59,566 nucleotides of DNA from a virus: IMG/VR virus record IMGVR_UViG_3300015263_001819, positions 1-59,566 of that record; one strand, 5' to 3'. Below, in pieces: positions 1-18,814 of the stretch (position 1 is the stretch's first letter; every line of letters begins with the position of its first letter). The position numbers were made by a program, and so were the translations under genes. The notes beneath the pieces were generated by a model that saw nothing but the letters and a program-made list of their open reading frames with translations, did not search any database and had not been told where the DNA came from.

Positions 1-262
1 TCGCCATGTCGCATCTCGGCGCTCGCCATCCGACATCCGCCGTCGAGGTCGGCCGCCCATCGCCATGTCGCATCTCGGCGCTCGCCATCCGACATCCGCC
101 GTCGAGGTCGGCCGCCCATCGCCATGTCGCATCTCGGCGCTCGCCATCCGACATCCGCCGTCGAGGTCGGCCGCCATCCGACGTGTCGCATCTCGGCGCT
201 CGCCATCCGACATCCGCCGTCGAGGTCGGCCGCCGTCCGACATCCGCCGTCGAAGTCGGCCA
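1..262. repeat. 59-bp tandem repeat array (about 4 copies)
   Basis: A unit of 59 bases starting with cgccatgtcgcatctcgg recurs at positions 2, 61, 120 and (degenerate) about 180, with partial fragments up to about 262. Because 59 is not a multiple of three, the array is open in all three forward frames, which creates overlapping spurious ORFs. No protein is inferred. The array lies at the window edge, so it may continue to the left. Confidence 0.9.
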
Positions 263-634
263 ACATGGCGCCATGCCGACATCCGTCGGCATCCGTCGAC
301 ATCCTGTGGATCAGACCCACCTTTCCCCACCAGTCGGCCGTGGTACGCCATCGTACCTGCCTTCCTCACCAAGTGTCTAGTTATCCTCCGATGGCATACA
401 TCGGGGCCTGCATCTGACAAGGTAGGCAAGTATCCGACATGTCGCATGCCATCGCCTTAGAACTCACCGTGTGGTGAATTAGGGGGCGATCGGCGGTGAG
501 CGGCGAAGATGTGCGCAAGGTAGGCGGATCGGGGGCGGTCGGCGCTCGAGGCCTACGGGTGAAGCCCATGTGTGCGGAGGTCGGGGGGCTACCCACGGGG
601 GTTCCGGTGTAGGGCGGTGTGGGGTGGGGGTTGG
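263..634. other. non-coding stretch
   Basis: No ORF with a ribosome site or recognisable product was found. The first part still contains fragments of the 59-bp unit (for example ccgacatgtcgcatgcc near 436). The remainder is G-rich and low in complexity. Confidence 0.5.
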
Positions 635-710
635 CCCAAGACCGGCTACGAAAATTTCGTGGCGAAATCCGCCCCCCAAGACCGGCTACGAAATTTTCGT
701 GGCGAAATCC
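635..710. repeat. two 36-bp direct repeats with palindromic cores
   Basis: The segment 635-670 recurs at 675-710 (period 40). Each copy carries an A/T-rich core: acgaaaatttcgt in the first and acgaaattttcgt in the second, which are exact reverse complements of each other. The arrangement looks like a pair of protein-binding sites. Which protein binds is unknown. Confidence 0.75.
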
Positions 711-916
711 CGATTCGCGGCTAGCTAGGCGGAATCGTTACCGAAAAACCGAACGGCGGGCGCGACGGTGTCTGGAATCCAGTGACGACGGACTACGGGA
801 AACGGTCGACGCTAACCGCTCGAGAAATTTCACAATTCGGTATTCTAGAATCGCGAACGGGCGCCGGGGGCGGGCCTTCGATCGGCCCTTACGGGCCTTG
901 CGCCGGGCGCGGCGTG

Positions 917-968
917 TGTTATGTTCGATTTACCTTCTCCTCATAGGAGATGCCCATCGCGAGATGGG
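917..968 (+). promoter_or_regulatory. extended -10 followed by two small hairpins
   Basis: TGTTATGTT at 917-925 fits the extended -10 pattern used elsewhere in this phage. Seven to ten bases downstream the predicted transcript begins with two adjacent perfect hairpins: TCTCCT-cat-AGGAGA (936-950) and CCCATC-gcga-GATGGG (953-968, GNRA-type loop). A 26-codon ORF from ATG 950 is possible but has no independent support. This may be the 5' end of a short untranslated RNA. Confidence 0.4.
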
Positions 969-1310
969 GGCGATTCGAGAGAACCGTCGTGGTGGTGGAG
1001 GCCTTCCGGCGACGGACGGCGGTCAAATAGACTGGGTAAGCCGAGATAAACGAAGCGATTCTCGCCCCTTCCACGCTCCGAGCCGTAAGGCGAGGAGAGC
1101 CCCCCTCGAACCCGATCCCCCGGGACGGTTCACTCCGAAGCATGCGCCGGCGATACAAAACCCGCGAACTTGCTGGCGAAGAGAGTCGCTTGGGAGTACT
1201 CGAGGGGTGGCTATCGTCCGGGGGGCGGGGCGGTAGCCCCGACCGGATCCGATGCCGACCGACTATCGTCGGCCGACTTCGAAACCGAATCGCCTACGAT
1301 CCTAAACGGT
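969..1310. other. non-coding stretch
   Basis: No gene, terminator or repeat was recognised. Forward ORFs here have no ribosome site and arginine-rich, shadow-like translations. Confidence 0.4.
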
Positions 1311-1640
1311 TAGACGCCTACGGAACGAGATGCGAATCGCTTCCGAGCCCCACTTCGCTCGCTCTAGCCTAAAAGCGAACGATCCTAGCCGCCTAGATGC
1401 ATATCGCGTACGAACCTAAAAGCCGATTTGAGTATCGCGTTCGAGTCGAGATGTAAATCGCCGTCGAACCCCTAACCGATGTGCAAATCGGCTAAGGCTA
1501 ACGATACTAGTAGGTTAGCCGACTAGATGCGTATCGCGCCCAAACCGATGTGCTAATCCGCTCCGCTCGTTCTAGCCTAAGTGCGAATCGGCTAAGAGCG
1601 AACGATCCTAGTAGGTTAGCCGCCTAGATGCGTATCGGAT
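1311..1640. repeat. family of diverged CTAG-containing repeats
   Basis: A core of CTAGATGCRTATCG occurs at 1393-1406, 1523-1536 and 1624-1637. Two copies are preceded by a shared block CTAGTAGGTTAGCC. Variants of gatgtgcaaatcggct are scattered between them (about 1330, 1450, 1482, 1545 and 1582). At 1496-1520 there is a dyad GGCTAAC/GTTAGCC around ACTAGT. The layout resembles an iteron or operator array upstream of the terminase genes. No ORF uses this stretch. Confidence 0.65.
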
Positions 1641-1834
1641 CGACGCCCAAATGGCGGAGGGAGTTGTATCTAGCGCCCTTATACTGACCAACCGTTTAGT
1701 GTATCGGCGTTTAGCTCGTTCGATCTGCCCGACTCGCCCCGTTCGAAGCGCCCGTTTTACGACTCGGATCGGACTCGACTCGCGCGTCGATCGCTCCCGT
1801 TACTCGTCCTATTCGCCCTTCTGCGCTCTCCCTC
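1641..1834. other. non-coding stretch with a possible -10
   Basis: No gene was seen. TATACT at 1680-1685 is a good -10 hexamer on the plus strand but lacks a clear -35. If it is used, the terminase transcript would carry the hairpin at 1835-1865 in its leader. Confidence 0.3.
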
Positions 1835-1865
1835 GGGCGGGGAGGCCCGTAGGGCCTCCCCGCCC
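1835..1865. other. perfect 14-bp inverted repeat, 3-nt loop
   Basis: GGGCGGGGAGGCCC (1835-1848) pairs perfectly with GGGCCTCCCCGCCC (1852-1865) across a GTA loop. No T-tract follows on the plus strand, so it is not a canonical terminator. It lies about 125 bp before the small terminase gene, a usual place for packaging-recognition sequences, but that role is only a possibility. Confidence 0.7.
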
Positions 1866-1974
1866 TCCACCTCGCCTCTCGCGCCCGGCTAGGGGCCTTT
1901 CTTGGCCCGTCTAATCGCAAAGCCGATCCCGTCGTTTGGGTTTCGGACTTGATAAACTACCGAATGGGATGTGG

Positions 1975-1980
1975 TAGGTT
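1975..1980 (+). promoter_or_regulatory. candidate -10 TAGGTT for terminase small subunit
   Basis: TAGGTT ends 8 nt before ATG 1989. This fits the close -10-to-start spacing seen at many genes here. It supports ATG 1989 over the GTG at 1971, which lies upstream of the element. Confidence 0.45.
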
Positions 1981-1988
1981 TAGGTGCG

Positions 1989-2600
1989 ATGCCTACTGCC
2001 ACTTCTCCCGTTTCCGCTCCCTCGATCTTCGATGCCGAGTTCGACGATCCGGACGACGACGAAGCGCCTCCCGATCCGAACGCCGAGCCGATCGCTCCCG
2101 TCGTTCGGTCCGAGCCCGACACGTCTCTCGAGCGCTTGCCTTTGCCTCGCGGCCGGCGATCGTCTCTCGACAAGCGCTCGATCGGCACGATCCGCGCCGC
2201 GCTTCGTTCGGGAATGCCGCTGTCGCAAACCGCGGGGTTGATCGGCATTTCTAGCTCGACGCTCCACTCGTGGTTGCGAAAGGGGTACGAGCCCGAGCCC
2301 GGCGACGATCCGTTGTACGCGGAATTGGCCCACGTCGTCGACTTCGAACGATCGCAACAAACGTTGCAAGGCGTGGAATTGATGAAGATCCACGCGTTGA
2401 AAGACCCTCGCGCCGCGAGATGGTTGCTGCAAGCGCAAGATCCGCACACGTGGGGCGATAAGCTTCAGCAAAAGGTCGAAGTGGAGCACACCCACAAGAA
2501 GGCCGCCGAGGACTTGTCGATGCTGACCGACGAAGAACTCGAGCTTCGCGCCCGGATCGAGGAGAAGATCACCGCCGGGCGGCTCGGAGAAGGCGGATGA
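1989..2600 (+). CDS. terS: terminase small subunit (terS)
   Basis: This 203-residue protein lies directly before the large terminase. It has an acidic, disordered N-terminus, then a helix-turn-helix around residues 55-85 (SLSQTAGLIGISSSTLHSWL-type sequence). A repeated-helix region follows, with the H-x-W-x-D-K-L-Q-Q-K-V-E-V-E signature typical of terS proteins. It should recognise the packaging site and assist the large subunit. GTG 1971 is an alternative start, but the candidate -10 at 1975-1980 favours ATG 1989. The stop overlaps the next start as ATGA. Confidence 0.85.
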   Translation: MPTATSPVSAPSIFDAEFDDPDDDEAPPDPNAEPIAPVVRSEPDTSLERLPLPRGRRSSLDKRSIGTIRAALRSGMPLSQTAGLIGISSSTLHSWLRKGYEPEPGDDPLYAELAHVVDFERSQQTLQGVELMKIHALKDPRAARWLLQAQDPHTWGDKLQQKVEVEHTHKKAAEDLSMLTDEELELRARIEEKITAGRLGEGG

Positions 2601-5103: not shown

Positions 5104-5219
5104 AGGACGAAGACACAACCCACTCGACCCGACTGCGCACGAGATCTCGGCGGAGTGCGAGCGCGTGGGATACCAGACACGAGGATTGGGCGCCGAAAAG
5201 CAGAGGAGGTAAGCGGTGA
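5100..5219 (+). CDS. 39-residue coupled small protein
   Basis: This GTG-initiated ORF overlaps the stop of the previous gene (GTGA, 5100-5103) and the start of the next (GTGA, 5216-5219), the same coupling used by its neighbours. AAAGGA lies 9 nt upstream. The product is hydrophilic and rich in Arg, Ser and Thr, with no recognised domain. Support comes from gap-filling and double overlap only. Confidence 0.45.
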   Translation: MKDEDTTHSTRLRTRSRRSASAWDTRHEDWAPKSRGGKR

Positions 5220-5710
5220 AAGTTGTAAAGACGACGAAGGCGACGGACGTCGCCGATGCGCTACGAGCTGGGGCGATCGGCGCCTTCGACGGCGAACGTG
5301 ACGTCTTCTATCTAGGCAAAGGGCCACATCCGCAGGCGTACGCCATTGAGATGTTCGACGAGTCCGAGTGGTATGTCGTCTACGCTGACGACGTCCCCGC
5401 GCCCGAGATCGATCCGCTCTCGCCGGACGATCGGCTTATCGTCGAACGGCACCGAAAGTCGTCCGACCGAGCCGTTCGGCGGATGATCGAATTGCTCGAT
5501 GTCTTCGCGCCCAAGCCCGCCTTGGATTTCGAGGAGTGCACACCCGGCGAGGCTTGCGATGCGGCGCTGTCGGGGGTCATCGTCGAGTACGAAACCGTCC
5601 GCGACGATTGGCGACGTCTAACCGATTCGCCCGGCGACGTGCAGTGGGCGAAGTCCCGATGGAGGAAGGCCAAGGCTAGGCCCCCGGAGACGGGGGGCGG
5701 CGCGGCGTGA
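5216..5710 (+). CDS. hypothetical protein with C-(S/T)-x-G-E-A motif
   Basis: This 164-residue protein starts at GTG 5216 behind gaggaggtaagcg. It is acidic, with an N-terminal segment of predicted alpha/beta character. Around residues 103-120 it carries FEECTPGEACDAAL, which aligns with the WVDCTFGEAMVAL module of the genes on either side (4798 and 7366). It may be a diverged member of the same three-gene family flanking the portal gene. Function is unknown. Confidence 0.65.
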   Translation: MKVVKTTKATDVADALRAGAIGAFDGERDVFYLGKGPHPQAYAIEMFDESEWYVVYADDVPAPEIDPLSPDDRLIVERHRKSSDRAVRRMIELLDVFAPKPALDFEECTPGEACDAALSGVIVEYETVRDDWRRLTDSPGDVQWAKSRWRKAKARPPETGGGAA

Positions 5711-5719
5711 TGCTACCCT
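5711..5719 (+). promoter_or_regulatory. extended -10 TGCTACCCT, leaderless spacing
   Basis: The hexamer TACCCT ends 5 nt before portal ATG 5725, with TGC upstream. No ribosome-binding site precedes the ATG. Confidence 0.6.
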
Positions 5720-5724
5720 AAGGC

Positions 5725-7320
5725 ATGGCCGAAACCGTATCCGACGCCGCGCCGCCCGACGCCCCCGCCCCTCCCCGTCTCCGGGGGCTCGGCGATAGCC
5801 TCGGAGATCGTTTAGGGATTCCGGTTTTCGCCGTCGACGCGGTCGTCAACTCGATGACCGGAACGGGCACGACCCGCTCGAAGTCGACGTACAACCGCTA
5901 CGCCGCCGCCGCCCGCCTCTCCGAGGCGGACATCGAGATCCTCTTCCGGGACAACCCCCTCGCCCGCCGCATCGTCGCCAAGATGCCCGAGACCGCGCTC
6001 CGGGCGGGGTTCGGGATTCGCCGAGCGGGCGCCTCGCCGGCGGCCGACGCCGACGCCCGGATGAAGATCACCCGGCGATGGGCGGAGCTCGAGGGACCCA
6101 AGCGCCTCAAGCGCGGCGCGCAATGGGCGCGCGCCTTCGGCGGCGGTGGGCTCATCGTAGCTGCGACGGGCTCAGGCCCGCTCGACGCGCCTCTCGTGCC
6201 GTCGCGGGTGACGGCCGTCGAGCGCTTCATCGAGTGGGATCGCCAGCAACTCACCGAGTTTCAGTGGTATCCGGACGGCGAGCCGAGCCACTACCTCTTC
6301 ACCCCCCGACGCCGCGGCGTAAATCTAGCGCCGATGGTCGTCCACGCGTCTCGGGTGCTCGCGTTCCCCGCGGCCGACGCTACGGTCACCCAACGCGTCG
6401 AGAACGACGGGTGGGACGACTCGGTGCTCCAAGCCGTCTATGAGACGCTCCTCGACTACGACGGCTCGTGGGCGTCGATCACCGACATGTTCGCCGACGC
6501 AAGCCAAGCCGTCTTCAAGCTCTCAGGGCTCATCGAGTCGCTGACCGAGGGCAACGGCAACGACGGCGTGCGCGACGTGCTCACCCGCCTTCGGACGATG
6601 GACCTCACTCGTAGCTCGAGTCGCGCGCTCGTGCTCGACGCCGGCGACGAGAACGGCCGGGGCGGCGAGTCGTTCGAGGTCATCGACCGCTCGGGCTTCG
6701 GGACGCTCGCGCCTATGGTCATCCAAATGTTCGTCCGGTTGTGCGCGGCGGCGGACATGCCGATGACGGTGCTGCTCGGCACGTCCCCGTCGGGCCAAGA
6801 CGCTACCGGCGAGTCGGACATGGCGTTGTGGTTCAACTCCGTCGACGTCTACCGGCAAAGCCTGACGCCCTTCATCGCGGCGATGGTTCGGATGATCGCG
6901 TACGAAGTCGGCGACGAAGACCCGGAGAGCTGGGAAGTCGTGTGGCCGGAGCTTCAACGCCCCAAGCCGCTGGACGTGGCGACCGCGCGCAACATGACCG
7001 TCACGTCGATCATGCAGCTCATCGACAACAACGTCGTCACGCCCGAGGAAGTGGCGCTCTCGATGCCGTCGTGGGTCGAGGAGGGTCTTGCCGGGCTCGA
7101 CATCGACATGCCGGCGCGACTCGAGGCGCTCCCCGAAGCGCTCCGGGAGGTCGCCGAGCGCGACTATGCCGAGGAACCCCCCGAGCCCGCCGACGTGGGG
7201 CCCGGCCAACTCGATCCGGGCGAAGACCCCGAGCCCCCGGAAGACGGCCCGAAGCCTCCTCCAGAGCGGATGACGGAGAGAAAAACGCCGTCGAAGACCG
7301 CCGGGCGACAAATCGGCTAG
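5725..7320 (+). CDS. portal protein (DUF1073-type)
   Basis: This 531-residue protein follows the terminase genes in the usual portal position. The N-terminal third contains the NRYAAAARLSEADIE...FRDNPLARRIVAKMPE segment typical of DUF1073 portals. The middle carries the conserved MCM-like wing and stem with MTVLLGTSPSGQDATGESD around 347-366. The C-terminal 60 residues are Pro/Glu-rich and probably disordered. It would form the dodecameric DNA gate at one capsid vertex. Translation is probably leaderless, since a TANNNT -10 sits 5 nt before the ATG and no GGAGG is present. Confidence 0.9.
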   Translation: MAETVSDAAPPDAPAPPRLRGLGDSLGDRLGIPVFAVDAVVNSMTGTGTTRSKSTYNRYAAAARLSEADIEILFRDNPLARRIVAKMPETALRAGFGIRRAGASPAADADARMKITRRWAELEGPKRLKRGAQWARAFGGGGLIVAATGSGPLDAPLVPSRVTAVERFIEWDRQQLTEFQWYPDGEPSHYLFTPRRRGVNLAPMVVHASRVLAFPAADATVTQRVENDGWDDSVLQAVYETLLDYDGSWASITDMFADASQAVFKLSGLIESLTEGNGNDGVRDVLTRLRTMDLTRSSSRALVLDAGDENGRGGESFEVIDRSGFGTLAPMVIQMFVRLCAAADMPMTVLLGTSPSGQDATGESDMALWFNSVDVYRQSLTPFIAAMVRMIAYEVGDEDPESWEVVWPELQRPKPLDVATARNMTVTSIMQLIDNNVVTPEEVALSMPSWVEEGLAGLDIDMPARLEALPEALREVAERDYAEEPPEPADVGPGQLDPGEDPEPPEDGPKPPPERMTERKTPSKTAGRQIG

Positions 7321-14384: not shown

Positions 14385-15416
14385 GTGGCTGAATACGTTC
14401 CGACTCAAGTCTACGATGCTGAGAGCTTCGAGGCCATCGACTCCGTGAAGGATGTCAACGGCGCGATCCTCGATGCGGTCCGCAACTTCAACCAAGCCTT
14501 GCCGGTGGGCGAGGCCGTGGACGACAACGAGAGCGTCATCTTCGCACGCCAGCTCGAGACCGTCAAGAACCGCGTCTACGAGATCCAGTACCCCGCGCTC
14601 CGCGGCCGGTCGTTCGTGCCGATGTCGAATGAGGCGGGGCCGAACACGAAGTATATCACCTACCGCGTGTGGGACAAGGTCACCTCAGCGGCGCTGATCT
14701 CCGACTACTCGACCGACTTCCCGAGTGTCTCGGCGAGCGCGCGCGAGCTGACGATCAAGTTCCACGACTACGGCAACTCGTTCGAGTACTCGATTCCGGA
14801 GCTGCGCGAGGCGCGTGAAGCCGGCGTCCCGCTCGACTCGAAGATGGCGGCGCTTTCTCGCGAAGGCATGGAGCGCGAGATCGACGCGGCCATCGCGTTC
14901 GGCGAGCCGGCCATCCGCACCTACGGATTGCTGAACCACCCGAACGTCGCGCTCGTGACGCTGCCCAACGGCCAGTGGACGACTTCGGCGACCGGCCTGC
15001 AAATGCTCGAGGATTTGAACGCGATGGTGTCCGCCGTCGAGGTCGACTCGAAGGACATCGAGAGCGTCACGAACGTGGTGATGGGTGTGGCGGACTACCG
15101 GCGCATCTCCACGACCTACGTGGACTCGGCGGGCGGGCGCGACACCGTTCTCCAGGCCTTCATGGCGCAGAACCCCGGCGTGACGGTCGACAAGTGGACC
15201 AAGGCGGAGCTGGCGTCGGCCGACGGCACGGGCTCGCGCATCGTGGCCTACTCGAAGCGCCCCGAGGTCCTCGAGTTCGAGATGGGTCTCGAGTACGAGA
15301 TCTACGGTCCGCAGGCCCACGCCTTCGTGCTGAAGTTCTTCGCTCGCGGCCGATGGGCCGGCCTCACGGTGCACCGCCCGAACGCGATCAAGTACGCCGA
15401 CGACCACAACGGCTAA
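14385..15416 (+). CDS. major capsid protein (DUF2184 type, HK97 fold)
   Basis: This 343-residue protein starts at GTG with a strong GAGGAG site. Sequence features fit DUF2184 capsid proteins: an N-terminal arm, FARQLETVKNRVYEIQYPAL, then KITYRVWDKV and the E-loop region. AFGEPAIRTYGLLNHPNVAL and the C-terminal EYEIYGPQAHAFVLKFFARGRWAGLTVHRP follow. It has its own promoter and terminator, consistent with very high expression. No separate delta domain is seen, in keeping with the upstream scaffold. Confidence 0.9.
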   Translation: MAEYVPTQVYDAESFEAIDSVKDVNGAILDAVRNFNQALPVGEAVDDNESVIFARQLETVKNRVYEIQYPALRGRSFVPMSNEAGPNTKYITYRVWDKVTSAALISDYSTDFPSVSASARELTIKFHDYGNSFEYSIPELREAREAGVPLDSKMAALSREGMEREIDAAIAFGEPAIRTYGLLNHPNVALVTLPNGQWTTSATGLQMLEDLNAMVSAVEVDSKDIESVTNVVMGVADYRRISTTYVDSAGGRDTVLQAFMAQNPGVTVDKWTKAELASADGTGSRIVAYSKRPEVLEFEMGLEYEIYGPQAHAFVLKFFARGRWAGLTVHRPNAIKYADDHNG

Positions 15417-15440
15417 GCGCCCCGGCGCCCGCGCCAGAAG

Positions 15441-15466
15441 GCCGCTCCCCCGGGGGCGGCTTTTTT
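15441..15466 (+). terminator. strong terminator after capsid gene
   Basis: GCCGCTCCCC pairs with GGGGGCGGC (15441-15460), followed by six T residues (15461-15466). Confidence 0.85.
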
Positions 15467-15492
15467 CGTTTGCGTCGCCGGTCGAGTTCGCG

Positions 15493-15498
15493 TAGGTT
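15493..15498 (+). promoter_or_regulatory. candidate -10 TAGGTT
   Basis: TAGGTT would start transcription near 15505, inside the first strand of the RNA fold at 15500-15655. It lacks the TGC extension. Confidence 0.35.
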
Positions 15499-15499
15499 C

Positions 15500-15655
15500 T
15501 AGGCAACCACCCCGACCTCCGCAGCGTGCCGTCAACTGAGGGACTACAGCGAAGGTTAGCGACGTCAGCTTCTCATACGTGTACTAGGCGTAGATCTACA
15601 CCTTTTTGTCGCTTCGGTGTAGCTAGCCGACACTGCTGGTCGGGGTGGTTGCCTA
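15500..15655 (+). ncRNA. structured RNA or leader with 18-bp closing stem
   Basis: TAGGCAACCACCCCGACC (15500-15517) is perfectly complementary to 15638-15655. Inside it nest a second helix (GCAGCGTG 15521-15528 with CACTGC 15631-15636, one bulged C), a third (GGTTAGC 15554-15560 with GCTAGCC 15622-15628) and a terminal hairpin (CTACACC 15596-15602 with GGTGTAG 15616-15622). The helices are mutually compatible except for one shared base. No coding capacity was seen. The outer stem ends directly before the ribosome site ctaggagg of the gene at 15670, so the element could be a regulatory leader or a free-standing RNA. Confidence 0.65.
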
Positions 15656-15669
15656 CTAGGAGGTCGCCC

Positions 15670-15930
15670 ATGCCGCGCTACGTTTGCCGAGAGAGTCAAT
15701 TCCCGCCCGAGCCCGACGACTCAGTCATCGAGGCGGAGTCGCCCACCGTCGCCGCCGTCGCGTTCGCGCTGCCGATGGTGGAGGAGGGCGCCGTCGCCCC
15801 TGAGGAGGAGATCAAGATCGACGTCACGGATGAAGACGGTCGCTCGGTCGCGATCCGCATGCACTTCGTCGTGGCGGTGGTCGTCAACGGGGAGACGTAC
15901 TTGATCGAGAAGCCGAAGGAGACGCCATGA
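15670..15930 (+). CDS. hypothetical small protein
   Basis: This 86-residue acidic protein starts at ATG 15670 behind ctaggaggtcgccc. The second half is beta-rich (KIDVTDEDGRSVAIRMHFVV, then VVNGETYLIEK). Its stop overlaps the next start (ATGA), so its translation is tied to the 532-residue gene and possibly controlled by the RNA fold upstream. Confidence 0.65.
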   Translation: MPRYVCRESQFPPEPDDSVIEAESPTVAAVAFALPMVEEGAVAPEEEIKIDVTDEDGRSVAIRMHFVVAVVVNGETYLIEKPKETP

Positions 15931-17525
15931 AGACGAGCTTGGGTGTGCGCCACCGCTACACGCAATACGACATCGACCGCGAGTATGCGGTGCTGCTCCA
16001 CGAAATGCAGCGCACGTTTTCGTTCGCGTCGACACAACCGCTCTTCGAGACCACCGCCGACGCCGACGAACTCTTCGAGGCGTACTTGGAGGCGATGCCG
16101 GAGGAGTGGCGACAATACCACCGGTGCTCGGCGTGTCGCGAATTCTTCCGCACCGTGGGTGACCTAGTCACGATCGACCCGAACACCGGGCGCACGGTGT
16201 CGGCGGTGTGGCCGGCGAACGTCACCGGCTTCTATGCGGCGCCCGTCGAGGCGGTTCGCAAGGCCGTCCACCGCGCCCACGCGCGCATGCCGTTCTACTC
16301 TTCGTCGACGGTTCACGGCTCGCCGGAGAAGGGCGGATGGACGCACTTCCACGTTCGGCCGGCGAAGGCGGGGGTGTATTCCTCGCGGTTGCAGACGTCG
16401 TGGCAGCGCGCCGCGGAGAAGCACCAAAACTACATCTCCGTCTACCAAGCGTTGAACGACTTCTCGATCGACACCGTGCGGCAAGCCGTCACGCTGCTCA
16501 AGACCGACTCGCTCTACCGCTCGGAGAAGGTGCTCGGCGCCGCCGAGTGGCTTCTCGACTTGCACGAGAAGCGCGAAGCTGTTGGCGGCGTGCTCAAGCG
16601 CCACGTCGTGATGCGCGCGGTGTCGGCGGCGCCGGACGGGTTTTGCCACCCGCGGTCGAGCATGATTGGCTCGTTGCTCGAGGACTTGCAATCCGGGATG
16701 TCGATCGACCGCGTGAAGCAACGCTTCGCCGCCAAGATGAATCCGATGGCCTACCTTCGCCCGCAAGCCGCGCCGAAGTCGGGCGCGATCGACCAAGCCG
16801 AGAAGTTGTTCGATCAACTCGGCCTCGCTCCGGCGCTCCGCCGCCGGTTCGCGCGCCTCGACGAAATCGAGGCGATGTGGCTGCCTAAGCCGAGCGTACC
16901 GGAGCCGACCGTCGGCGGAACCTTCGCCGTGCTCCGCCAAGCGCCGCCTTCGAAAGCTCTCGACTTGGGCACCGAGACGATGACGTGGGTCAAGTTCGTA
17001 CGTGACGTCTTGCCGGAGGCGTTGAGTATCGAGCTGGACGTGCCGTATCGCGGCAACTTCACTGCCATCACCACCGCGGCCGACATGGGCGCCCCGCCGA
17101 TCTTGCGGTGGGATTCGGACGACCCAACGCGGCGCAACCCATGTTGCGTGTACGTCTACAACGGCGGCTCTGGCGCAAGGCAATGGGGCTTGAACGGCAC
17201 GTCCACCGTCACGGCGATTTGTCGCCGCCCGGAGAAGTGGAACGGTCGCGACTTCAAAGACGAGACCGACGGCGCGGTGCTCGTGCTGGAAGGCGCCGTC
17301 GACTCGCGCGACTCGGGTTTGGCTCTCTTCCCGGAGACGCTTAGCTCGGAGCTGCATGGCGTGCGTTCGGTCATCGAAGCATACTCCGCCCAAGGCCGCA
17401 TCGAGGGCCGTGACGAAGCCTCGGCGTGCGGGATTTTGCTCGGCGCGAAGAGCACCATCGGCTTGACTTTGAAGGCCCACGCCGTAGGATGGACGCGAAC
17501 GATCCGCCTGGATCGGTGGGAGTGA
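15927..17525 (+). CDS. conserved-looking phage protein of unknown function
   Basis: This 532-residue protein is coupled to the preceding small gene. Near residues 65-95 it contains YHRCSACREFFRTVGDLVTI, a CxxC knuckle followed by a hydrophobic strand, then WPANVTGFY. A mostly helical middle and a beta-rich C-terminal third (PCCVYVYNGGSGARQWGLNG) follow. I have an impression of similar YHxCxxCRxFxxxxGxLV proteins in other phages but cannot attach a function. It lies between capsid and methylase, so a role in nucleic acid transactions or virion maturation is equally possible. Confidence 0.7.
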   Translation: MKTSLGVRHRYTQYDIDREYAVLLHEMQRTFSFASTQPLFETTADADELFEAYLEAMPEEWRQYHRCSACREFFRTVGDLVTIDPNTGRTVSAVWPANVTGFYAAPVEAVRKAVHRAHARMPFYSSSTVHGSPEKGGWTHFHVRPAKAGVYSSRLQTSWQRAAEKHQNYISVYQALNDFSIDTVRQAVTLLKTDSLYRSEKVLGAAEWLLDLHEKREAVGGVLKRHVVMRAVSAAPDGFCHPRSSMIGSLLEDLQSGMSIDRVKQRFAAKMNPMAYLRPQAAPKSGAIDQAEKLFDQLGLAPALRRRFARLDEIEAMWLPKPSVPEPTVGGTFAVLRQAPPSKALDLGTETMTWVKFVRDVLPEALSIELDVPYRGNFTAITTAADMGAPPILRWDSDDPTRRNPCCVYVYNGGSGARQWGLNGTSTVTAICRRPEKWNGRDFKDETDGAVLVLEGAVDSRDSGLALFPETLSSELHGVRSVIEAYSAQGRIEGRDEASACGILLGAKSTIGLTLKAHAVGWTRTIRLDRWE

Positions 17526-17527
17526 AG

Positions 17528-18094
17528 ATGCCCAAGCCCAACGCCTTGCATTCGCTCTACGGCGGAAAGACGGCCCTGTCGGGGAACATCGGCGGTCAGA
17601 AGCGTGAGCAAACCGTCTTCACGCCGGAGTGGTTCATCGACCAAATCTCGCTCGCCGCCGGCTCCGGCCCTTCCCTCGATCCGTGTACGACCTCGGAAAA
17701 CCCCGTCGGTGCGGACTTGTATTACACGGAGGCAGTGAACGGGCTCCTTTTGCCGTGGAAGACGCCGCGGTGGGTGTACTGGAACCCGCCATACAACCGA
17801 CTCGAGCAATGGATGCTCAAGGCGTTCGCTGAGGCGCAAAACGGTGTGCCGTCGTATGGGCTCATACCGCTCCGCCCACAGCGCGGGTGGTACGCGCGAT
17901 ACGCCCGAGGCGCCGAACTCGTCCCGCTCGCTCCGTTCCCGTTCCAAGGCCACAAAAGCTCGTTCCCCGCGCCGTTGGTGTTGTTGGCGTGGCATCTACC
18001 ACCGCCCGAGAGGATCCTGAATCCGAAGAACAAGAACCTCGTCTTGGGGTTCATGGAGATTCACGCCACCCCGCGGGCGAAACGCGCGGCGTAG
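17528..18094 (+). CDS. phage N6-adenine DNA methyltransferase (Dam-like)
   Basis: This 188-residue protein has FTPEWFIDQI at residues 31-40 and the SAM-site-like SLDPCTTSENPVGADLYYTE from 49. WNPPYN at 85-90 is the catalytic NPPY motif of amino-methylating enzymes, and PLRPQRGWY follows. Length and motif spacing match the compact phage Dam family. It would methylate adenine in phage DNA, probably as protection from restriction. The start is ATG 17528 behind gggagtgaag. It is transcribed with the preceding unknown gene. Confidence 0.85.
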   Translation: MPKPNALHSLYGGKTALSGNIGGQKREQTVFTPEWFIDQISLAAGSGPSLDPCTTSENPVGADLYYTEAVNGLLLPWKTPRWVYWNPPYNRLEQWMLKAFAEAQNGVPSYGLIPLRPQRGWYARYARGAELVPLAPFPFQGHKSSFPAPLVLLAWHLPPPERILNPKNKNLVLGFMEIHATPRAKRAA

Positions 18095-18142
18095 TTTTTT
18101 CGACCACACGTACGTTTTCCACTTGCACGGGTCGGTGACGTG

Positions 18143-18160
18143 CATCACATTCGTGTGATG
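18143..18160 (+). promoter_or_regulatory. 7-bp hairpin with TTCG loop over a start codon
   Basis: CATCACA (18143-18149) and TGTGATG (18154-18160) pair across TTCG. The 3' arm contains ATG 18158. The fold may limit initiation at that ATG, or the dyad may be a protein-binding site. Confidence 0.5.
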
Positions 18161-18814
18161 TCTCCATCTACCCGTCGTAAAGCCAATTCCGAGTCGTCCG
18201 ACGGCTCGCCCGAGCCCGCGCTCGACGCCGCCGAGGAAACCGTGACCGAACTAGAAGCGCCCGCCCCGGCCACCCCCGAGCCGAACTTGAAGGGTGTAGT
18301 CGTCATCGAGAACAACGGCTACTCGGACGTGTTCCTCCCCAGCACGAAGTCGCACGCCAAAGGCAAGCGGCTCATCCCGGGGCTCAACAACGTCCCGCGG
18401 CTCTACCTCCACGAGCTGATGACCCACCGCGTCAAGAACCGCGACAACGACGGCGAGCCCGGCGGCTACCGCTACCCAGGTCAAGAGGCGTTGAAGCGCT
18501 TGCAGACCCCCGTGCGCATCTCTCAAATGGAGCACGCCGACTACTTAGGCCCACGCATCACCATCTACGAGCCCGACCAACTCCGCGCGCGCGGCATCGA
18601 GGTCGGCGATTACGGCGTCGATGCCGAGGGCCCGCCCCCGCCCGCTTCGCTCGCCGCCGGCGGCTACAACTTCGAGACCGCCGCACGCATCATCCGCATC
18701 ACGAAGGACCCCGAGGCGCTGAAGCGTTGGGCCGCCGAGCGTGGCGTCAAGCAGGACATCAAAGATGAGTGCCTCAAGCGACTCGGCCAAATCGCCCCCG
18801 CGCCGCGCGCGTAA
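18158..18814 (+). CDS. hypothetical head-tail region protein
   Basis: This 218-residue protein has a Glu/Pro/Ala-rich disordered N-terminus (about 45 residues). A compact domain beginning LKGVVVIENNGYSDVFLPST and a helical C-terminus containing FETAARIIRITKDPEALKRWA follow. GTG 18140 is an alternative start upstream of the hairpin. Position between methylase and connector suggests a virion or head-completion role, but no family was recognised. Confidence 0.65.
   Translation: MSPSTRRKANSESSDGSPEPALDAAEETVTELEAPAPATPEPNLKGVVVIENNGYSDVFLPSTKSHAKGKRLIPGLNNVPRLYLHELMTHRVKNRDNDGEPGGYRYPGQEALKRLQTPVRISQMEHADYLGPRITIYEPDQLRARGIEVGDYGVDAEGPPPPASLAAGGYNFETAARIIRITKDPEALKRWAAERGVKQDIKDECLKRLGQIAPAPRA

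Follow-up and report, generated by a model that had tools for sequence, protein, structure and literature searches.

Which kind of element occupies the stretch between the capsid gene of an uncultured phage and the genes that follow it, an RNA of its own or a part of the next messenger? The window analysed here, i.e. the whole stretch of 59,566 bases from IMG/VR record IMGVR_UViG_3300015263_001819 (positions 1 to 59,566), shows the gene order of a contractile-tail phage (terminase, portal, protease, capsid, tail sheath), with a large terminase of the standard kind (PHROG 38, E 5.8e-78). Behind its capsid gene, an element of 156 nt takes up the space that separates the terminator of that gene from the Shine-Dalgarno (SD) sequence of an 86-aa gene. 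The locus comprises the following features:

14385..15416, plus strand: major capsid protein gene, upstream neighbour of the element (PHROG 264, E 3.4e-64)
about 15436-15466, plus strand: intrinsic terminator of the capsid gene, 13-bp GC-rich hairpin and T6 run (from sequence and fold)
15470..15498, plus strand: weak promoter-like pair TTGCGT-17-TAGGTT (match to TTGNNN-17-TANNNT), predicted start about 15504-15505
15500..15517, plus strand: 5' arm of the 18-bp perfect stem, TAGGCAACCACCCCGACC (from sequence pairing)
15514..15520, plus strand: GACCTCC, exact complement of GGAGGTC at 15659-15665 in the SD region (from sequence)
15518..15637, plus strand: interior of 120 nt, non-coding, structure at chance level (from folds versus shuffles and codon-position GC)
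15638..15655, plus strand: 3' arm of the stem, GGTCGGGGTGGTTGCCTA, ending 3 nt before the SD (from sequence pairing)
15658..15663, plus strand: SD sequence AGGAGG, 6 nt 5' of ATG 15670 (from sequence)
15670..15930, plus strand: 86-aa gene (ORF86), function unassigned (from codon-position GC)
15927..17525, plus strand: 532-aa gene of PHROG 1735, function unassigned (E 2.2e-95)
17528..18094, plus strand: Dam-type DNA adenine methyltransferase gene (Pfam PF05869, E 4.4e-7, above cut-off)

The first-pass annotation of this DNA had described an element whose ends pair perfectly over 18 bp, which has no coding function and which lies between a strong terminator and a ribosome site. These points were confirmed: TAGGCAACCACCCCGACC and GGTCGGGGTGGTTGCCTA are complementary at 18 of 18 positions and enclose 120 nt, while the terminator hairpin lies upstream and AGGAGG with ATG 15670 downstream. 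GC content by codon position amounts to 0.44/0.77/0.48 in the upstream in-frame extension of the 86-aa gene and to 0.69/0.40/0.88 from 15670 on, a contrast which indicates that coding begins at 15670 and that the extension running through the element is non-coding. For the 86-aa protein itself, neither a PHROG or Pfam match nor a relative in IMG/VR was found. The three further helices also claimed for the interior did not withstand comparison with shuffled sequences. To measure how anomalous a fold is, we regressed folding energy on composition across 2,970 folds from the window, among which the full 156 nt rank first (residual z −5.7 on the minus strand and −4.5 on the plus strand). The interior alone, however, folds no better than its shuffles on either strand (z +1.0 on the plus and −0.2 on the minus strand), and its two halves, when aligned as a palindrome, gave no significant match (p 0.18–0.25). 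The three inner helices are what any sequence of such composition offers; hence, the case for the element rests on its closing stem and its position. An interior that is random can pass for a multi-helix RNA once a striking stem closes it.

How unusual is the stem itself? A perfect stem of at least 18 bp with a loop of 40–220 nt appeared in one of 300 dinucleotide-shuffled windows. In 1.97 Mb of other DNA, two stems of at least 18 bp were present, one in a locus chosen by a paired-arm pattern and one, unselected, of 19 bp within a coding gene of a related phage. The stem is unusual for the genome, yet reading many windows would yield some such stems by chance. A fortuitous hairpin, i.e. an inverted repeat without function that chance, or a mutational process acting locally, placed in one of the module's few gaps, is an unlikely explanation that nevertheless deserves some weight: it would fit the interior that is no more structured than shuffles, a shuffling frequency that is not negligible across many windows, the coding-region stem of the related phage and the lack of conservation anywhere searched. 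It fits less well with a position in a short non-coding gap, 3 nt before an SD sequence, and with the top rank of the fold in the genome. The element is a real, locally outstanding, single-copy hairpin.

Some other structures and motifs of the window may be recorded alongside. The third-ranked fold, on the minus strand (z −4.1), covers 18020–18175 after the dam gene and includes, where the next gene begins, the hairpin CATCACA-TTCG-TGTGATG. Another hairpin at 5667–5801 (z −4.5 on the plus and −4.1 on the minus strand) spans the end of an open reading frame (5216–5710) and the start of the portal gene, and near its apex lie a TGCTACCCT box and the ATG of that gene (5725), so that read-through transcripts would hide the portal start codon. 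The left end of the window (1–2000, approximately 2 kb) is poor in convincing genes; it has about four tandem repeats of 59 bp at 1–295, direct repeats of 36–40 nt and a GCTACGAAA-TTTCGTGGC palindrome pair, and is possibly an origin or regulatory region. Over-representation of CTAG and CTACACC was examined as well and led nowhere.

Does the element have relatives elsewhere? At the gathering threshold, Rfam contained no family for it, pRNA, 6S, retron and ribozyme families included, and a search at E up to 5 returned sub-threshold matches only. Neither a homologue nor a second copy emerged when phages, plasmids and the record itself were searched by sequence, and no homologue was found in 21 virus records with related terminases. 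One 16-base arm occurs at 48 loci in IMG/VR, at none of them with the partner arm nearby. Scans for paired arms, which require exact arms and miss diverged copies, gave no match in IMG/VR in one case and five chance matches in another, while paired 11-base arms had two matches in 84,980 genomes, both unrelated. One chance match to the arm pattern, in an Abditibacterium MAG (L179:2329-2490), is a 55-bp perfect inverted repeat around 52 nt between genes, which may be real or an assembly artefact.

The surroundings of related genes were covered, too. The leaders of 59 PHROG 1735 homologues displayed no recurrent structure. Folds downstream of the capsid gene at 49 loci included several anomalies; those inspected turned out to be promoter hairpins, terminators or coding sequence, and none had the anatomy of the element. 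The capsid protein as a single query found no relative, and the relatives obtained by a capsid alignment search are only about 30% identical. Among the matches listed, the nearest relative (G001; terminase 45% and capsid 44% identical) has an HNH-type nuclease gene and a methyltransferase gene, the latter by reading frame, in the slot behind its capsid gene, and neither PHROG 1735 nor a matching element there. This difference in gene content points to the slot behind the capsid gene as a place of varying cargo. Because the element is absent from every relative found, nothing points to selection on its pairing. In the G001 slot itself (L275:5956-6726), one hairpin contains the promoter-like box and the start codon of the nuclease gene; the methyltransferase gene is preceded by a long perfect one, CTACACCCTGTCGA...TCGACAGGGTGTAG.

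A location at the edge of a block of cargo genes, which is different in the nearest relative among the matches listed, would also suit a MITE-like foldback insertion, or the remnant of one, with 16-bp terminal inverted repeats, a TA target duplication and an unstructured 120-bp core. The perfect terminal repeats (16–18 bp), the TA at both ends and the interior without structure are consistent with such an origin, with the restriction that the terminal TA is indistinguishable from stem pairs. Still, we regard it as distinctly unlikely: with the arm patterns applied, no second copy turned up in the window, in phages, plasmids, IMG/VR or the 84,980 genomes, and the seven paired-arm pattern matches have no common sequence outside the arms. 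As sequence and arm-pattern searches gave no further copies, a multicopy MITE family is unlikely, although diverged arms would escape such patterns. NEMIS/Correia and ERIC are multicopy, MITE-like foldback families; the element resembles them in size (about 100–160 bp), terminal inverted repeats, TA ends and intergenic location, but is single-copy and has no homologues in the collections searched.

Could the element act as a switch on the ribosome site? GACCTCC at 15514–15520 is the perfect complement of GGAGGTC at the SD, and this pairing and the closing stem are mutually exclusive, which would allow a ligand- or protein-responsive leader switch whose anti-SD toggles between stem and SD. Predicted folding argues otherwise. 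The closing stem forms with a probability of 0.98–0.99, and the alternative pairing is predicted at 0.000 because the 18-bp stem always wins. In a transcript from 15500 to 15720, SD and AUG are predicted to be unpaired with probabilities of 0.65 and 0.75, in one starting at 15505 with 0.48 and 0.78, and in one starting at 15518, in which the 5' arm is absent, with 0.30 and 0.23; in a read-through transcript (15400–15760), the SD is predicted to be merely 0.32 unpaired. An SD and start codon predicted to be mostly open with the stem formed, and the zero probability of the alternative pairing, favour a permanent hairpin over a switch. An internal terminator-like hairpin reaches only −4.2 kcal/mol, and there is no aptamer-like structure and no Rfam family at threshold, an unknown aptamer being invisible to Rfam. 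We therefore judge a switch to be very improbable, and the element is probably not a sensor. From the earlier suggestion of a novel leader switch, the structured leader is retained as a fair reading, given its non-coding sequence and its place between terminator and SD, whereas the switch is dropped in view of the alternative SD pairing and an interior at chance level.

On which strand, and from where, would the element be transcribed? The promoter-like pair is weak, matching the sigma-70 consensus at 6 of 12 positions, and is not of the TGCTANNNT form that is present before many gene starts of the phage. Its predicted start falls inside the 5' arm, at the base of the stem, and perfect pairing extends to 15500, 5' of that start. 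The TGCTANNNT box occurs 14 times on the plus strand and three times on the minus strand of the window, including boxes at 5711, 12105, 13284, 14325, 22691, 24017, 26835, 27474, 34143 and 37556; many lie shortly 5' of gene starts, several of them 11–13 nt before the ATG. TANNNT stands 11–13 nt 5' of a start in 19 cases on the plus strand versus 4–12 cases at control offsets. Judged from sequence, the spacing of the TGCTANNNT boxes suggests leaderless mRNAs, and a host from a lineage in which these are common. Such lineages include the Actinobacteria and Deinococcus-Thermus (PMC3160421).

The minus strand folds slightly better (−75.2 versus −71.2 kcal/mol), with six G-U pairs at the positions at which the plus strand has A-C mismatches, and has the stronger residual (z −5.7 versus −4.5). 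An RNA read from the minus strand, on which the G-U pairs would keep the pairing, could explain this, though we give it little credence: the strand preference by folding is weak because the interior is not significant (z −0.2), a search of the minus strand upstream of the element (15656–15900) found no TANNNT box, and all neighbouring genes as well as 14 of the 17 TGCTANNNT boxes are located on the plus strand. A plus-strand transcript is the simpler expectation.

Such a transcript might be a free small phage RNA, closed by the 18-bp stem and acting in trans, as the first-pass annotation had proposed as one option. The fold has a clear start and end, a candidate promoter lies at its 5' edge and the upstream terminator isolates it; on the other hand, no terminator or U-tract follows 15655, the 3' end runs straight into the ribosome site, the promoter is weak and there are no homologues. 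With no U-tract after the stem and no strong promoter, the proposal found no support, and we consider it improbable. Its more far-reaching form, a separate orphan RNA of a new kind (about 130–156 nt, with an 18-bp clamp, late-expressed and trans-acting on host or cargo genes), is a slim prospect. A discrete RNA, if shown, would matter more, as neither an Rfam family nor a relative in sequence explains the element.

Known classes of non-coding RNA fare worse. A packaging RNA, one of the roles that had been envisaged for a free RNA, or another known kind such as 6S or Y RNA is hardly credible. The element is superficially alike in its paired ends and length, as a comparison with phi29 prohead RNA illustrates (paired ends, roughly similar length), but the latter works with a phi29-type packaging ATPase and is unfit for a phage with a standard large terminase; in addition, no Rfam family matches at threshold and PHROG 1735 is not Ro60-like. 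RtcB adjoins the PHROG 1735 gene in Rhizobium phages, which led us to consider Y RNA and Ro60; the PHROG 1735 protein gave no TROVE and no PDB match. On inspection of the sequence, the element ends misfit the integron attC consensus GTTRRRY, and the core of a hammerhead ribozyme is absent by eye. Riboswitch, packaging RNA and Y RNA are thus all disfavoured. The 532-aa PHROG 1735 protein yields a confident model (pLDDT 92.5) for which no structural match in the PDB was obtained at E ≤ 0.001; it resembles uncharacterised proteins of phages and giant viruses (Megaviridae, Indivirus), and in Bradleyvirinae its gene lies near those of ribonucleotide reductase and DNA ligase.

The stem fills the gap between terminator and SD, is non-coding and forms part of the most anomalous fold of the window, and for these reasons we tentatively favour, at somewhat less than an even chance, a hairpin acting in cis, in the leader of the plus-strand transcript or between its cistrons, which shields the downstream mRNA or helps to process it while keeping the ribosome site open. 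The hairpin would belong to a unit of ORF86, PHROG 1735 and dam, transcribed on the plus strand either from the weak start near 15500–15505 or by read-through of the capsid terminator. Its stem is predicted to be essentially always formed, with the 5' arm keeping SD and start codon accessible. It might act in two ways: (i) as a protective 5' stem-loop and/or (ii) as a cut site for a double-strand-specific RNase, which would part the mRNA of the capsid gene from the one downstream. Rather than a new class of RNA, the element is most likely an ordinary hairpin, protective or processing, with which the next mRNA begins. If so, the result is useful and unsurprising: another phage would be using a strong hairpin to separate its capsid mRNA from the cargo genes behind the capsid.

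Both roles have precedents. It is established that 5' stem-loops can stabilise mRNA, as in ompA, and that RNase III cuts intergenic mRNA (review PMC2777011); the Escherichia coli ompA leader stem-loop goes back to Emory et al. 1992 (as cited in PMC2777011). Like the ompA leader, the element presents a stable hairpin just 5' of a ribosome site, predicted here to be mostly single-stranded, and its stem may have a transcription start at the base; unlike it, the stem encloses 120 nt, sequence homology is absent and the start is predicted, whereas ompA was mapped and tested. An RNase III site takes about two turns of duplex, and 18 perfect pairs are present here in a region whose transcription is putative. 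In phage T7, the RNase III sites between genes are compact hairpins with known cuts. While the element differs from these in its 120-nt interior and in the putative nature of its cleavage, it shares with them an intergenic, non-coding location and a perfect duplex of nearly two helical turns, placed after the terminator of a capsid gene.
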